Positions 12,534-19,210 of a DNA stretch of 29,177 bases are shown piece after piece (the first letter of the stretch is position 1; the number at the start of each line of letters is the position of its first letter). The translations under genes and the position numbers were made by a program. Location of the stretch: positions 1-29,177 of IMG/VR virus record IMGVR_UViG_3300031576_000237; one strand, 5' to 3'. The notes beneath the pieces are model-generated. The model had not been told where the DNA came from. It saw only the letters and a program-made list of their open reading frames with translations, and ran no database searches. Source of the stretch: a virus.

Positions 12534-13012
12534 TGCTGCCGCTCGTGATCACCGATCCGCGCTTCATCCCTGGCCTGATCAGGTCGATGTCGCCGCGAGC
12601 GATCGACAACGTGCGCGCCCTCGAACGTCTGAGCCTCGATCACGTCGAGCAGGTTCTGCCGATCACCTATCACCTGATCCACGCCGGGATGTATCACCGG
12701 ACGATCCTCGTGCCGAAGGGCATGACGCTGACCGGCGCGCTGATCAAGCGCGCGACGACGGTGATCATGGTCGGCGACGCGAGCATGTACGGCGGCGACG
12801 GCGAGGAGGAGCGGTTCACCGGATACACCGTCCGGCCTGCGATGCCTGGCCGCAAGCAAGCGTTCTATGCGTGGAGCGACACGTACCTGACCATGATCTT
12901 CCCGACGAAGGCGCGCACTATCGCCGAAGCCGAGGCGGAGTTCACTGACGAAGCCGATCGCCTGTTCTCGCGACGCGGCCAGAACGAAGTTCACATCACG
13001 GAGGAGCTATGA
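12530..13012 (+). CDS. Conserved-looking phage protein after GNAT gene, unknown
   Basis: 160 residues from GTG 12530, or 159 from the adjacent ATG 12533; both overlap the previous stop. The middle is beta-rich with histidines (YHLIHAGMYHRTILVPKGMTLTG) and VIMVGDASMYGGDGEEERFTGY, resembling a cupin-like barrel. The end is helical and acidic (KARTIAEAEAEFTDEADRLFSRR). Neighbours are a GNAT protein and the portal block, so it belongs to the morphogenesis region, but a virion role is not shown. Confidence 0.65.
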   Translation: MMLPLVITDPRFIPGLIRSMSPRAIDNVRALERLSLDHVEQVLPITYHLIHAGMYHRTILVPKGMTLTGALIKRATTVIMVGDASMYGGDGEEERFTGYTVRPAMPGRKQAFYAWSDTYLTMIFPTKARTIAEAEAEFTDEADRLFSRRGQNEVHITEEL

Positions 13013-13320
13013 GCGGCGGCGTATCGATGGGTGCAGTTCTCACGGCAGTCGGCGCATCGGTAGCTGGCGCAGTGGTCAGCCAGGCGCTGAACAAAAAGGC
13101 GTCAGCGCCTTCGCAGACGCAGGCGACACCGATGCTGGTCGAGCAGGCCGCTCCTCCTGCGGCGACGCAGGACAACACGAAGGTCGCCGCAGAGGAGGCC
13201 GCTGCCGCCGCGAAGAAACGCGCTGCCGGAGCTACCGGTCGCGGCGACACGATCAAGACCGGCGTGAACAAAGACCTCGGCTCTGTCGGCGGCGAGCAGA
13301 AAACGCTGCTCGGCTACTGA
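13009..13320 (+). CDS. Small Gly/Ala-rich protein upstream of portal
   Basis: 103 residues; GGAGG lies just before ATG 13009. An N-terminal Gly/Ala/Val stretch (MGAVLTAVGASVAGAVVSQAL, about 7-27) could be a weakly hydrophobic helix. An Ala/Gln-rich middle follows, and the end is GRGDTIKTGVNKDLGSVGGEQKTLLGY. The RG..TI.TG.....KTLLG ending is typical of a small protein found just upstream of portal genes in many podoviruses. It is probably a minor virion or internal protein, function not known. Confidence 0.7.
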   Translation: MSGGVSMGAVLTAVGASVAGAVVSQALNKKASAPSQTQATPMLVEQAAPPAATQDNTKVAAEEAAAAAKKRAAGATGRGDTIKTGVNKDLGSVGGEQKTLLGY

Positions 13321-15086
13321 TGGCCGCTGTCGTTCAAGCTCGCGATCGGTTCCAGGCTTACAAAAAGCCGGAGTCGGAATACGTCACGTCACGCCAGCGG
13401 TATGAGCTTGCGCGTGCGTCGATGTGGAACGAGCGGGCGCTGCACGATCCGCACTTTCGCGAGCTAGGCGAGTTCATCGCGCCGCGCCGTCCGAGGTTCT
13501 TCACGTCGGACCGCAATCGCGGCGATCGACGCAATCAGAAGATCATCGACTCGACCGCGAGCTTCGCGAAGCGCACGATCCAGTCCGGCATGCACTCCGG
13601 CATGACTTCGCCTGCGCGTCCGTGGATGAAGCTGCTGACGCCGGACCCTGACCTGAACAACTACGCCACGGTGAAGGACTGGCTCTACATCGTGACGCAG
13701 CGCATGCTGACGGTGTTCGCGCAGACCAATCTCTACAACATGCTGCCGATCCACTACGGCGACATGGCGACGTTCGCGACCGCCGCGACCTCGATCCTCG
13801 ACGACACGCAGGACGTGTTCAGGGCGTACAACTACCCGATCGGCAGCTACGCCATCGCGACGAACTCGCGCGGCATCGTCGACCAGTGGATTTACGAGGA
13901 TCAGAAAACGGTCCTTGAGATCGTCGAGGAGTTCCTGCTCGATCGCAAGACGAACATGATCGACTGGTCGAAGGCGTCGAACACGCTGCGCAATCAATGG
14001 GACCGCGCGAACTACAACACGAAGGTCGACGTGTGCTGGATGATCATGCCGAACTTGGCACGCGATCCGAACGCGCTCGAAGCTGGCCGGTTCATGCCGT
14101 ATCAGTCGGTACACATCGAGAAGGGTCAGGAGCGCGAGGACACGTTCTTGCGCGTCTCAGGTTTCAACGAGTTCCCGATCAACGTGTCGCGATGGGACAT
14201 CACCGGAAACGATTGGTGGGGAACGGACTGCCCGGCGATGATCGCGCTCGGCGACGTGAAGCAACTGCAGACCGGCGAGAAGCGCGGCGCGCAGGCCGTC
14301 GAGAAGATGCTGAACCCTCCGCTGCAAGGGCCGTCGTCGATCCGCAATCAGAAGGCGAGCCTGCTGCCTGGCGACATCACCTACGTCGACGTGCGCGAGG
14401 GGCAGAAGGGGCTGCATCCGATCCACGAGATGCGGTTCGCGATTCAAGAGCACGAGATGAAGCAGCAGAGCACGCGCAACCGGGTCAAGACCGCTTTCTA
14501 TGAGGACTTGTTTCTCATGATGGCGTACACCGATCAGACGCGCGGCGTGCAGCCTCCGACCGCCACCGAGATCGCCGAGCGCCACGAGGAAAAGCTGATC
14601 GCCCTCGGGCCGGTCCTCGAACGCACGAACGACGAACTGCTCGATCCGATGGTCGATCGCATCTACTCAATGATGGAGCGGCGCGGGCTGATTCCGCCGC
14701 CGCCCGAGGAACTGCACGGCATGAAGCTGCGGATCGAATACACGTCGATCATGGCGCAGGCGCAGAAGCTGGTCGGCGTCGTGGCTCACGAGCGGTTCCT
14801 GCAGCAAGTGGTCGCGCTGTCGCAGACGTTCCCGCAGGCGCGGCACAAGGTGAACATCAACCAGGCGATCGACGACAGCGCCGACATGCTCGGCGTGAAC
14901 CCGAAGATCGTCGTGCCGACCGACGAGGCCGATGCCGCGAGCGCGCAGGAGCAGAAGGCTCTCGCGGCTCAGGCGTCTGCCGCCGCCGCGAAGGATGGAA
15001 CGCAGGCCGTGGCGAACATGGCCGGAGCGAACATGGAGGAGGACAACGCTCTGAAGCGGATCGTTGAGGGAGTGGTCGCGCAATGA
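13320..15086 (+). CDS. Portal (head-to-tail connector) protein
   Basis: 588 residues, the usual size of podovirus connectors. Family features include RYELARASMWNERALHDPHFRELGEFIAPRR near the N-terminus, the SGMTSPARPWMKL segment (about 94-106), DTQDVFRAYNYPIGSYAIA, and MMAYTDQTRGVQPPTATEIAERHEEKL near residue 400. It forms the dodecameric ring at one capsid vertex through which DNA is packaged and to which the tail attaches. The C-terminal 60 residues are Ala-rich and helical. Start overlaps the previous stop by one base. Confidence 0.93.
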   Translation: MAAVVQARDRFQAYKKPESEYVTSRQRYELARASMWNERALHDPHFRELGEFIAPRRPRFFTSDRNRGDRRNQKIIDSTASFAKRTIQSGMHSGMTSPARPWMKLLTPDPDLNNYATVKDWLYIVTQRMLTVFAQTNLYNMLPIHYGDMATFATAATSILDDTQDVFRAYNYPIGSYAIATNSRGIVDQWIYEDQKTVLEIVEEFLLDRKTNMIDWSKASNTLRNQWDRANYNTKVDVCWMIMPNLARDPNALEAGRFMPYQSVHIEKGQEREDTFLRVSGFNEFPINVSRWDITGNDWWGTDCPAMIALGDVKQLQTGEKRGAQAVEKMLNPPLQGPSSIRNQKASLLPGDITYVDVREGQKGLHPIHEMRFAIQEHEMKQQSTRNRVKTAFYEDLFLMMAYTDQTRGVQPPTATEIAERHEEKLIALGPVLERTNDELLDPMVDRIYSMMERRGLIPPPPEELHGMKLRIEYTSIMAQAQKLVGVVAHERFLQQVVALSQTFPQARHKVNINQAIDDSADMLGVNPKIVVPTDEADAASAQEQKALAAQASAAAAKDGTQAVANMAGANMEEDNALKRIVEGVVAQ

Positions 15087-15442
15087 GTTCAGCGCCGAAC
15101 GCCGCCGATCCGAGCCAGGTCAAGCAGGCCGGTCGCAAGGATCAGGACAGGGCGATCAGGTTCGCACGCGACCTTAAGGCCGTGCTCGGAACGCGCGAAG
15201 GTCGCAATGTCCTGTGGCACTACCTCGGCGCGTGCAAGGTGTTCGAGTCCGTGTGGCATCCGAGCGCGCTGATCCATGCGCAGGCCGGACGCCAGGATGT
15301 CGGACACGAGATCATGAAGGACATCAATGACACCGATCAGGATGCGTTTTTCCTGATGATGAGGGAAGCGCGCGACGCGGCACGGCGCGACGAAGCAGAA
15401 CGTGCCGCAGTCCAACAAACCAAAAAGGACACCACCGCATGA
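15083..15442 (+). CDS. Bbp19-like small phage protein
   Basis: 119 residues starting at ATG 15083 (ATGA with the portal stop). LKAVLGTREGRNVLWHYLGACKVFESVWHPS and RQDVGHEIMKDINDTDQDAFFLMMREARDAARRD (about residues 30-105) match the Bbp19-like phage domain, found between portal and scaffold genes in BPP-1-like phages. Its biochemical role is not established; position suggests a part in head assembly or a minor virion protein. The last 15 residues are polar and probably disordered. Confidence 0.8.
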   Translation: MSSAPNAADPSQVKQAGRKDQDRAIRFARDLKAVLGTREGRNVLWHYLGACKVFESVWHPSALIHAQAGRQDVGHEIMKDINDTDQDAFFLMMREARDAARRDEAERAAVQQTKKDTTA

Positions 15443-16230
15443 ACCGCACGAAGATCAGCATCGCAGTGCAAGCCGCCTACCTCGTGGTCAATGCGTCGCG
15501 TCGTTATGGCGACGGCGACGCCTCGACGACCACGACCACCACAACGACCGAGCCTCCGAAGTTCGATCCTGCCGCCGCACGCAGCGCGCTGGTCGAATAC
15601 GGGCATCCCGAGGAGACGGTCAAGGGATTGAAAGACGAGGACGTGCAGAAGCTGCACAGCACGGTCTCGAAAGCAGAGCAGAAACGGATCGACGCCGCGC
15701 TCGCAAAAACCAAAGGCGAGCAGGAGACGACCGCGAAGTCGAACAAAGAAGGTTGGGAGAAGGGAACGCTAAAGCTCGAACTGCCGAAGGAATCGAAGCT
15801 CCATCAGTCCGACATCGACGAGGTCGCCGCCATTGCGCGCGAGCGAGGATTGTCGAAGGACGAAGCAGCCGTCATGCTCGCTCAACGCGAGAAGGCCGCT
15901 GCGGGGTTCGAGGCCAGGTCGATCGAGACGATGGCGAAGGCGCGGCTAGGATGGGTAGACACGATCAAAGCCGACAAGGAACTCGGCGGCGATAACCTGC
16001 CGGAGACGCAGCGCCTGTCCATGCTGGCGGTCGAGAGGTTCGTGAGTCCCGCGCTGCGCGAGCATCTGCGCACCACCGGGTTCGGCGATCATCCCGAGAT
16101 CGTTCGCATGTTCAGGTCGATCGGCCAGGCAATGAGCGAGGACAAACCCGGAGTCGGGGGCGGACTCAGCAAGGGCGGCGGCGAAAAGAAGGACGCCGCT
16201 TCGGTTCTTTACGACAACACTCCGGCCTAA
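15439..16230 (+). CDS. Capsid scaffolding protein
   Basis: 263 residues, acidic to neutral and mostly helical, placed between portal and major capsid. A central heptad-like region (ETVKGLKDEDVQKLHSTVSKAEQKRIDAALAKTKGEQE) and a C-terminal GDHPEIVRMFRSIGQAMSEDK are characteristic of scaffold proteins of this phage type. It shapes the prohead and is lost before DNA filling. Unusual: the N-terminus MNRTKISIAVQAAYLVVNAS looks like a weak signal peptide or amphipathic helix, followed by eight threonines (30-37). Start ATG overlaps the previous stop (ATGA). Confident on role; the meaning of the N-terminus is open. Confidence 0.8.
   Translation: MNRTKISIAVQAAYLVVNASRRYGDGDASTTTTTTTTEPPKFDPAAARSALVEYGHPEETVKGLKDEDVQKLHSTVSKAEQKRIDAALAKTKGEQETTAKSNKEGWEKGTLKLELPKESKLHQSDIDEVAAIARERGLSKDEAAVMLAQREKAAAGFEARSIETMAKARLGWVDTIKADKELGGDNLPETQRLSMLAVERFVSPALREHLRTTGFGDHPEIVRMFRSIGQAMSEDKPGVGGGLSKGGGEKKDAASVLYDNTPA
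15526..15549. repeat. Threonine codon microsatellite in the scaffold gene
   Basis: Eight consecutive ACN codons (ACG, ACC and ACA mixed) encode an eight-threonine run between the unusual N-terminus and the conserved part of the scaffold. The mixed codons make slippage less likely than in a pure repeat. It looks like a flexible linker. Confidence 0.7.
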
Positions 16231-16261
16231 CGGCCACAACCTATATAAAGGGAAACAGGTC

Positions 16262-17401
16262 ATGACCATGCAAATGATTCTCCTGAACCTCGCGGCTCTG
16301 GCCGTGATGTTCTTCGTGCTCTACGTCGCGCTGCCGCAACTGGCTCGCGCGATCCTCGGCGGCAAGATCGTCGGCGTTCCGTCCGCGTTCGGGATGGCAG
16401 GCGCGACGCTCGGCACGGCGGCGCTGACGCTGGCGGATTGGGCGAAGCGGCTCGATCCCGATGGCAAGGTTCCGACTGTCGTCGAACTGCTCTCGCAGAC
16501 GAACGACATCCTGACCGACATGCTGTGGATCGAGGGCAACCTGCCGACCGGCCACCGCACTACGGTTCGCACCGGCTTGCCTACCGTCGCCTGGCGTCTG
16601 CTGAACCAGGGAACCACGCCGAGCAAGAGCACGACTGCGCAGATCGACGAGCAGGCGGGCATGCTGGAAGCGTGGAGCGAGGTCGACAAAGACCTGGCCG
16701 AACTGAACGGCAACGTCGGCGCGTTCCGTCTGTCCGAGGCGATGGCGTTCCTCGAAGCCATGAATCAGGAGATGGCGCAGACGCTGTTCTACGGCAATTC
16801 GGGTCTCGCGCCCGAGGAGTTCACCGGCTTGGCGACGCGCTACTCGTCGCTCACGTCGACGAACGCCTCGAACGTGATCACCGGCTCGGGCGCTGGCGCG
16901 GACAACTCGTCCATCTGGCTCGTCGGCTGGGGCAGCGACACCATCTGCGGGATTTTCCCGAAGGCGTCGAAGGCCGGGATCATCCACGAGGACTACGGCG
17001 TGCAGACCGTCACCACGGCGACCGGCATCGGCGGCGGCAAAATGCGCGCCTACCAGGAGCGGTATCAGTGGAAGGCGGGCATCGCGCAGAAGGACTGGCG
17101 CTATGCGGTTCGCATCCCGAACATCGACATCAGCAACCTCGTCGGCAAGTCGTCGGCGGCGGACCTGATCGAACTGATGATCAAGGCGACCTACCGCATC
17201 CCCTCGCTGAACCGCTGCCGCCCGGTGTTCTACATGAACCGGACGTGCATGCAGATGCTGGACATCCAGCGTCGTGACGACATCATCGCGGGCGCGGGCC
17301 TGACCTGGGAAACGGTCGACGGCAAGCGGCAGGGTACGTTCCGGGGCATCCCGCTGCGTCTCTGCGATCAGCTTACCGAAGCGGAAACCCTCGTCTCGTA
17401 A
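16262..17401 (+). CDS. Major capsid protein (GP7-type) with hydrophobic N-terminal extension
   Basis: 379 residues. From about residue 46 it matches the GP7-type major capsid protein: ATLGTAALTLADWAKRLDPDGKVP, WIEGNLPTGHRTTVRTGLPTVAWRLLNQG, and SEVDKDLAELNGN..AFRLSEAMAFLEAMNQE, with expected length. Relatives normally start near MAGATLGTAAL (an in-frame ATG lies at 16395). Here 44 extra residues precede it, including a strong hydrophobic span MILLNLAALAVMFFVLYVAL. The extension's codons have about 86% G/C third positions, so it appears to be translated; AGGGA lies 8 bases before ATG 16262. It may anchor the protein to a membrane or act as a leader; an internal start could give both forms. Confidence 0.9.
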   Translation: MTMQMILLNLAALAVMFFVLYVALPQLARAILGGKIVGVPSAFGMAGATLGTAALTLADWAKRLDPDGKVPTVVELLSQTNDILTDMLWIEGNLPTGHRTTVRTGLPTVAWRLLNQGTTPSKSTTAQIDEQAGMLEAWSEVDKDLAELNGNVGAFRLSEAMAFLEAMNQEMAQTLFYGNSGLAPEEFTGLATRYSSLTSTNASNVITGSGAGADNSSIWLVGWGSDTICGIFPKASKAGIIHEDYGVQTVTTATGIGGGKMRAYQERYQWKAGIAQKDWRYAVRIPNIDISNLVGKSSAADLIELMIKATYRIPSLNRCRPVFYMNRTCMQMLDIQRRDDIIAGAGLTWETVDGKRQGTFRGIPLRLCDQLTEAETLVS

Positions 17402-17412
17402 GTCCGAGACGA
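17391..17412 (+). promoter_or_regulatory. Hairpin over the major capsid stop codon
   Basis: TCGTCTCG (17391..17398) pairs perfectly with CGAGACGA (17405..17412); the 6-base loop holds the TAA stop. No T-run follows. Possible roles are RNA stability, processing or partial termination before the cement gene. Confidence 0.45.
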
Positions 17413-17443
17413 ATCCACTCAACGAGAAAAAAGGAATACGCAC

Positions 17444-17962
17444 ATGAACAAGAAACTGCTCGCTCTCTCCATCGCGGCGGCGTTTGCCGCGCCGCTGGCT
17501 CAGGCCGATGTCCGGTACAAGCCGAATGGCATCGTCGACGCGCTGCTGCAGCTTTCCTCGGCACAGCAGATCACGGCGGACGCCGTATCGACGAACACCA
17601 TCGACACCGGCAACATCACGCCGAAGCGCAACATGGGCGTCGGCGAGCCGATGGGCTGTCTGATCGTCATCACGGCGGTCGGCACGAACACCGGCTCGGC
17701 GAAGCTGACGCTGATCCAGTCGGCGGCGGCGAACCTGGGATCGCCGCAGATCATCGGCGAGATCGACCTGGCGACGGCGGACATCGCTGTCGGCAAGACG
17801 TATCTCGTCGCGCAATCGACCGGCATCGACGCGCTGCGCTACCTCGGCATCAACTACGACATCACCGGCACGGTCGACTTCACGGTGACGGCGTACTACG
17901 GGCCGATCTCGATGTTGTCGCAGCGCGCCCTGACCTACGCCAAGGGCTACACGATCTCGTAA
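17444..17962 (+). CDS. Bbp16-family capsid cement protein with Sec signal peptide
   Basis: 172 residues; AAGGA lies 8 bases before ATG 17444. Residues from about 32 match the Bbp16-type cement protein: DALLQLSSAQQITADAVSTNTIDTGN, GVGEPMGCLIVI and SAKLTLIQSAAANLGSPQIIGE, ending in the usual RYLGINYDITGTVDFTVTAYYGP. Cement proteins bind outside the expanded shell and stabilise it. Unusual: the first 21 residues, MNKKLLALSIAAAFAAPLAQA, form a textbook Gram-negative Sec signal peptide with an AQA cleavage site, which family members normally lack. If used, the protein would be exported to the periplasm, incompatible with ordinary assembly, so the peptide may be uncleaved or serve another purpose. 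Confidence 0.82.
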   Translation: MNKKLLALSIAAAFAAPLAQADVRYKPNGIVDALLQLSSAQQITADAVSTNTIDTGNITPKRNMGVGEPMGCLIVITAVGTNTGSAKLTLIQSAAANLGSPQIIGEIDLATADIAVGKTYLVAQSTGIDALRYLGINYDITGTVDFTVTAYYGPISMLSQRALTYAKGYTIS

Positions 17963-18898: not shown

Positions 18899-19210
18899 AT
18901 GGGAAATCCGAGACTTGAGTTCGACACCGACTACGAGACCGTAGCGGCTTCGCAGTCCGATCAGGTTCTCGGCGGCGCTGGCAAGGCTGGCGACATCCTC
19001 GAACGTCTGGTCATCACCGTTGGAACCGCCGCCACCGCTGCCGTTTCGATCAAGGACGGCGGCGGCTCGGCGATCCCGATCTTCCCGAACTCACCTGGCG
19101 GCGGCATCGGGACATACTTCGTCGACATCGGCGCTCGTTCGGTTAGCGGCGGCTGGAAGGTGACGACAGGCGCTGGCTCGACTGTTCTCGCGATCGGCAA
19201 GTTCACGTAA
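18899..19210 (+). CDS. Small structural phage protein, unknown function
   Basis: 103 residues; GAGGAG lies about 6 bases before ATG 18899. DYETVAASQSDQVLGGAGKAGDILERLVITVGT...SIKDGGGSAIPIFPN and the ending RSVSGGWKVTTGAGSTVLAIGKFT are a beta-sandwich signature common in head-tail regions of many phages. Probably exposed on the virion or part of head closure, but not experimentally assigned. A strong hairpin follows its stop. Confidence 0.65.
   Translation: MGNPRLEFDTDYETVAASQSDQVLGGAGKAGDILERLVITVGTAATAAVSIKDGGGSAIPIFPNSPGGGIGTYFVDIGARSVSGGWKVTTGAGSTVLAIGKFT

Follow-up and report, generated by a model that had tools for sequence, protein, structure and literature searches.

Capsid proteins of tailed phages are treated as soluble, cytoplasmic proteins. 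Does the major capsid protein encoded by the stretch of DNA analysed here (29,177 bases; hereafter, the window) begin with a membrane leader, and, if it does, what could that leader do during head assembly? The window is a fragment of an uncultured epsilon15/BPP-1-type phage, taken from an IMG/VR virus record without a host genome. A sequence-only reading had claimed that three adjacent genes in it, those for scaffold, capsid and cement, share membrane- or export-like N-termini.

N-termini of the head proteins in the window

The head genes are arranged in the order portal, Bbp19-like gene, scaffold, capsid and cement (Table 1), which is that of the epsilon15/BPP-1/phiV10 group. By profile and fold, the capsid protein is an ordinary member of the GP7 family. 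The PF20911 profile scored 424.6 bits (cut-off, 27), the core is 48-56% identical to cultured BPP-1/phiV10-type capsids, and the best structural match of the core was Bbp17 of BPP-1 (3j4u_A; Z 25.2, rmsd 3.6 over 285 residues), with further matches to Carin1 (8cjz; Z 23.1) and epsilon15 gp7 (3j40; Z 17.6). For the most part, the alignments to the 91 matching phage records cover the protein from residue 59. The cultured GP7 members examined start about 11 residues before the core motif ADWAKRL, and a start some 10-12 residues before it is usual in the family and found in most relatives, although not family-defining, whereas the window protein carries a membrane-type leader of 44 residues ahead of Met45 (position 16394), or 57 ahead of the core motif.

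Table 1. Head genes of the window and the features of their products discussed in the text.
Feature	Position	Strand	Remarks
Portal gene	13320-15086		PF12236
Bbp19-like gene	15083-15442		
Scaffold/protease gene, phrog_458	15439-16230	+	No membrane leader; dG +3.95
Ribosome-binding-like AAAGGGAA ahead of the leader ATG	16247-16254	+	None such before the internal ATG at 16394
Major capsid gene, GP7	16262-17401	+	379 aa; PF20911
Capsid N-terminal leader, 44 aa, preceding Met45	16262-16393	+	MTMQMILLNLAALAVMFFVLYVALPQLARAILGGKIVGVPSAFG; dG, GC3, AlphaFold2 helix
Predicted membrane helix of the capsid leader, residues 5-24	16274-16333	+	dG -2.4 for MILLNLAALAVMFFVLYVAL
Disordered linker from leader helix to capsid core, residues 35-51	16364-16414	+	AlphaFold2 pLDDT < 50
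GP7/HK97-fold capsid core from ADWAKRLDP	16433-17401	+	PF20911 at residues 65-378; 3j4u_A match
Cement gene, Bbp16	17444-17962	+	PF21190
Signal-peptide-like cement N-terminus, 21 aa, ending AQA/D	17444-17506	+	Start-codon-free up to the cement core
Cement protein, Bbp16 family jellyroll	17507-17962	+	PF21190 at residues 37-143

A ribosome-binding-like AAAGGGA lies about 7 bases upstream of the leader ATG, the site at Met45 has a score of 0, and G/C at third positions reaches 0.86 over the first 44 codons, in agreement with the earlier statement that the extension, with about 86% third-position G/C, is not a mis-called start. Membrane-insertion energies were calculated with the dG-predictor formula in an approximate parameterization, with the M13 gp8 helix (-1.4) as a control. 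The best segment of the leader scored -2.4 kcal/mol versus +4.6 for the best segment of the protein's own core, and a second stretch in the leader was weak (+2.5). AlphaFold2, run with a 44-sequence alignment, modelled the leader as one helix from residues 2 to 32 (pLDDT about 77-88), joined to the core by the disordered linker. The leader has the hydrophobic core and a small-x-A site (ARA) of a Sec signal peptide but no K or R ahead of the helix (MTMQM), and R30 and K35 follow it; judged from this arrangement, a signal anchor fits better than a Sec signal peptide. The leader is predicted to form a single helix with its N-terminus out and its C-terminus in, leaving the capsid core inside.

The scaffold protein differs from what had been claimed. 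Its supposedly weak signal-like start scored at best +3.95 over the first 40 residues, which is inside the range of its relatives (+3.8 to +13.4); in leader-bearing phages, the scaffolds, most of them Ala/Lys/Pro-rich, scored between about +3.8 and +12.7. A scaffold leader was rejected for lack of a hydrophobic helix, and the idea of three adjacent genes sharing a leader fails with it: only two genes have one, and that of the cement gene is limited to a single clade.

The cement protein of the window does begin, as had been read, with a Sec-type signal peptide ending in AQA (MNKKLLALSIAAAFAAPLAQA followed by D), with a positive start, a hydrophobic core and a small-x-A site; by eye, there is no alternative start before the core, which was recognized by the PF21190 (Bbp16) profile at 58.2 bits (cut-off, 27.1). 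Beyond the window, such extensions were found only in its two closest relatives, L142/L002 (MKKKLLSAAIGAMFARGPAVAQ) and L087/L001 (different and longer), where they are weak or degenerate and where an internal ATG is also present at the conserved place. The conserved M-F/Y-x-D is the start of almost every other cement gene found, in most leader-bearing phages and in the sister L143/L003 as well; cultured-phage homologues match the window protein only from residue 30 on, past the signal peptide. The cement signal peptide is thus a local feature. The cement core of the window is closest to that of the leaderless L081 (71%), and the leader is similar to that of L142/L002, where a different type of core follows it; these resemblances point to possible recombination at the joint between leader and core. 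In several leaderless loci, genes with signal peptides are located just past the cement gene (+1886 from the capsid start in L117, about +1850 in L238, L240 and L245, +1799 in L219 and +1841 in L031). The L117 gene is an apparent homologue of the window gene at 18899-19210, which has no signal peptide. Signal peptides on several head-region genes of this family may come and go.

Capsid leaders among relatives

Protein searches of IMG/VR and species genomes yielded 133 distinct capsid loci, in each of which the start with the best ribosome-binding-like site was called. The start lies 10-14 residues before ADWAKRL in 92 loci and 44-68 residues before it in 40, and one locus is cut by a contig end. 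At 90% identity, the 40 leaders fall into 33 distinct sequences, which are diverse (18-45% identity to one of them, except for one 96% pair) but share a common layout consisting of a signal-peptide-like hydrophobic helix, a K/R-poor loop and, usually, a weaker second hydrophobic stretch leading into ADWAKRLDP. Typical examples are those of L210 (MRLFCLMALCVIALFSIDLSA/ATTAAQHSAAAGSWVWKLGLVVAFGAALGTGNLTM/ADWAKRL) and L012 (MYRMLFVLLAFVLAFSDSVFA/QVVTSAHGTDHSKVEWLIYGLGAIGAVLGTGALTL/ADWAKRL). The AlphaFold2 model of the signal-peptide-type L210 was poor (mean pLDDT 53).

Leaders were absent from every cultured relative examined and from all 10 relatives detected in a scan of 84,980 species genomes, and the openly accessible literature yielded no description of a signal peptide on the major capsid protein of a tailed phage. 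On an otherwise ordinary GP7 capsid protein, the membrane leader is a variant seen in none of these three sets.

The internal start is used by most relatives and by the cultured phages examined, and the long forms could on this ground be attributed to mis-called starts or to chance hydrophobic read-through ahead of the true start. Several observations make this highly improbable. A ribosome-binding-like score of at least 3 was obtained at the leader start in 39 of the 40 leader loci, and in many leader genes a plausible start codon is missing around the conserved position, so that the leader form must be their only product. Leaderless genes nested among the leader loci (L199, L204, L022, L228 and L197) have a stop codon 3-15 bases before the conserved ATG and a clear ribosome-binding-like site at this ATG, indicating two distinct gene forms rather than a calling error; L210, with a leader, and L199, without one, constitute a natural pair with 77% identity. 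In addition, the gap to the scaffold gene is short, and GC3 is about 0.85. The first helix has a dG of 0.54 or lower in 40 of 40 leader loci, as opposed to a background of about 5% of the other genes in the same loci scoring below about 0.5 (15/306 and 30/671); hydrophobic starts in other genes near leader capsids were not enriched (15/306 vs 30/671). In leader loci, the median dG was -1.4 for the first helix and +0.84 for the second stretch; the corresponding values were +4.0 for the best segment within the core and +4.45 for the N-termini of leaderless proteins. The coding signal and the purifying selection described below are of the same tenor, and mis-called starts were rejected on the basis of the start-codon survey, the coding signal and selection, and the clean leaderless starts.

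Signal sequences usually evolve fast. Pooled over independent pairs, pN/pS was 0.62 for the leader and 0.22 for the core, and among informative pairs the closest ones gave the leader a dN/dS of 0.08-0.45. The leader is coding and constrained in kind, and it evolves faster than the core. Its history was examined on a quick-type tree of capsid cores, from which the leader was left out and in which recombination was not modelled. On this tree, the leader state changes 12-13 times. A single ancestral leader clade was rejected by the AU test (p-AU 1.5e-65), which indicates that leaders have been gained or lost repeatedly and that the design either persists or arises again in different lineages.

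Homologue alignment had been named in the sequence-only reading as a test that could refute it. The capsid leader withstood this test: many homologues carry a translated capsid leader that is built alike and shows purifying selection, even if the majority of relatives, and the cultured phages examined, have none; the scaffold did not withstand it, and for the cement protein the extension proved to be confined to the window and its two closest relatives. The 44 extra residues with a hydrophobic span that had been noted on the capsid protein are real, and such leaders are more widespread than had been noted.

Charge pattern and predicted topology of the leaders

The capsid leaders of relatives have the positive start, hydrophobic core and small-x-A site of Sec signal peptides. 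K or R is present within residues 2-12 in 32 of the 33 distinct leaders, and an [AVILSTG]-x-A site is present at residues 15-33 in 30 of them (the ARA of the window being counted). K and R account for only 11 of the 454 residues in the loop that separates the two hydrophobic stretches (2.4%), compared with 9.9% in the cores (P 4e-10). Under the positive-inside rule, this pattern predicts the start inside, the loop outside and the capsid core inside. The AKR following the second stretch is also present in leaderless proteins; because these post-helix K/R residues belong to the conserved core, they fit the idea of a stop-transfer signal but by themselves do not prove selection for topology. The leaders of L002, L003, L185, L194 and L221 appear to have more in common with an uncleaved anchor than with a plain signal peptide. 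What all these leaders share would therefore be not export but a capsid core predicted to stay in the cytoplasm, anchored in the membrane by its N-terminus.

Export nevertheless deserves consideration: with a second stretch of no more than marginal hydrophobicity, weak in the window (+2.5), the capsid protein may be fully exported. Capsid and cement proteins might be partly exported to the periplasm or the cell surface for a second job (as a decoy, in a superinfection block or in lysis timing) besides building heads. The plain Sec-type signal peptide of the window cement protein and the signal peptides on several other genes of these phages are in keeping with this, but many leader phages have no internal start and make the leader form alone, which must also build the head, and, from the charges in the loop and behind the helix, the core is predicted to be cytoplasmic. 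We regard such a second job as rather unlikely.

The topology predicted for most relatives resembles the design of M13 pVIII, which has a signal peptide, a short outside segment, a second membrane helix and a cytoplasmic C-terminus. The likeness is one of design only: pVIII is an unrelated protein of an unrelated virion, and the cytoplasmic part here is a 320-residue HK97-fold domain.

A proposal of membrane-docked head assembly

We propose that the capsid leader is a membrane-targeting element and that heads are assembled while attached to the inner membrane, where signal peptidase may trim the leader; we give this reading a probability of roughly 50%. The leader would be hydrophobic enough for targeting to the inner membrane, presumably through Sec/YidC, during capsid synthesis. 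In most relatives, a short loop on the outside would come after the signal-peptide-like helix, and the conserved AKR would halt a weak second stretch; the window leader would insert as one helix, whose positive charges are all on the C-terminal side. Both designs would leave the capsid core in the cytoplasm, with the N-terminus holding it at the membrane. The shell would then assemble on the cytoplasmic face of the inner membrane through the docking of many subunits, the capsid protein itself being the anchor. Signal peptidase could trim the leaders bearing an A-x-A-like site, after which the weak second stretch could detach and free the heads for packaging.

In BPP-1, the capsid protein has both termini on the outer surface of the head, and its N-terminal peptide extends outward and pairs with the cement protein (PMC3863775). 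A leader at this end would point outward from the mature head, beside the cement protein, and the shell would accordingly dock on the cytoplasmic membrane face; inner-membrane prohead assembly thus fits both the predicted cytoplasmic core and the external N-terminus of the BPP-1 capsid. A precedent for the assembly site is provided by T4, whose proheads start on the inner membrane, with the portal attached, in a gp40-dependent manner and in contact with YidC, and are later released (PMC9958956). As proposed for the window phage, the T4 head is built at the inner membrane, but there the portal (gp20) is attached rather than the capsid protein, and T4 gp23 is without a membrane leader. Counting against docking, the close relatives L199/L204 and L022 manage without a leader. 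The cement signal peptide is not explained by cytoplasmic assembly either, because its cleavage would imply that the cement protein exits the cytoplasm.

The external position of the BPP-1 N-terminus, where it augments the cement sheet and any extension would adjoin the cement protein, could also suit a leader that is retained on the mature head as a surface peptide, packing on cement or neighbouring capsid proteins or sticking virions to surfaces, with no use of a membrane. The fast variation of leader sequences agrees with such a role. However, packing needs neither a signal-peptide charge pattern nor A-x-A sites nor K/R-poor loops, and the aggregation expected of a T=7 head that exposes several hundred hydrophobic helices makes retention unlikely in our estimation.

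HK97-fold capsids commonly have N-terminal prodomains, and the leader could be an internal N-terminal scaffold similar to the delta domain of HK97 gp5, removed before expansion by the phage protease (the phrog_458 gene). Such a role is retained as a rival because the procapsid N-terminus may sit elsewhere than in the mature BPP-1 head, and the adjoining gene is annotated as a protease in the family. The delta domain is likewise an N-terminal extension of an HK97-fold capsid protein, but it is a soluble internal scaffold, whereas the window-type leader is hydrophobic and signal-peptide-like. The leaders do not resemble charged coiled coils, a separate scaffold/protease gene is present with or without a leader, and the closest relatives lack the prodomain altogether; we consider this role decidedly unlikely.

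A more extreme variant would involve a whole shell of membrane-inserted subunits with their anchors outward, the head being formed by curving of the inner membrane, perhaps with a lipid coat or passage through the envelope, as in enveloped or filamentous viruses. We consider this very unlikely.

If membrane-docked assembly is correct, a considerable group of uncultured phages would couple head assembly to the membrane, keeping one physical design despite repeated gain or loss of the leader. Gene callers and signal-peptide filters may wrongly label such capsid genes as secreted or trim their starts.

Small proteins with hydrophobic starts were also encountered near the head genes. In the window, one is encoded ahead of the portal gene (13009-13320) and has a Gly/Ala-rich hydrophobic start (MSGGVSMGAVLTAVGASVAGAVVSQAL); similar proteins are encoded upstream in L187, L185, L190 and L223. 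Other small proteins (about 105-125 aa) with plain signal peptides are encoded among the head genes of leader-bearing phages, upstream of or near the portal and scaffold genes (L101, 666-986; L223, 3807-4130; and L133, L193, L198 and L206). They share the domain FxAGRVTVTTTATAIYTAP...CNRHxAxxFIG and have almost no family matches. Limnohabitans phage DC33 (PQ492659.1; L252) has an epsilon15-type capsid gene in a 39-kb genome with a taxonomy line of Inoviridae, a filing that is probably a misclassification.
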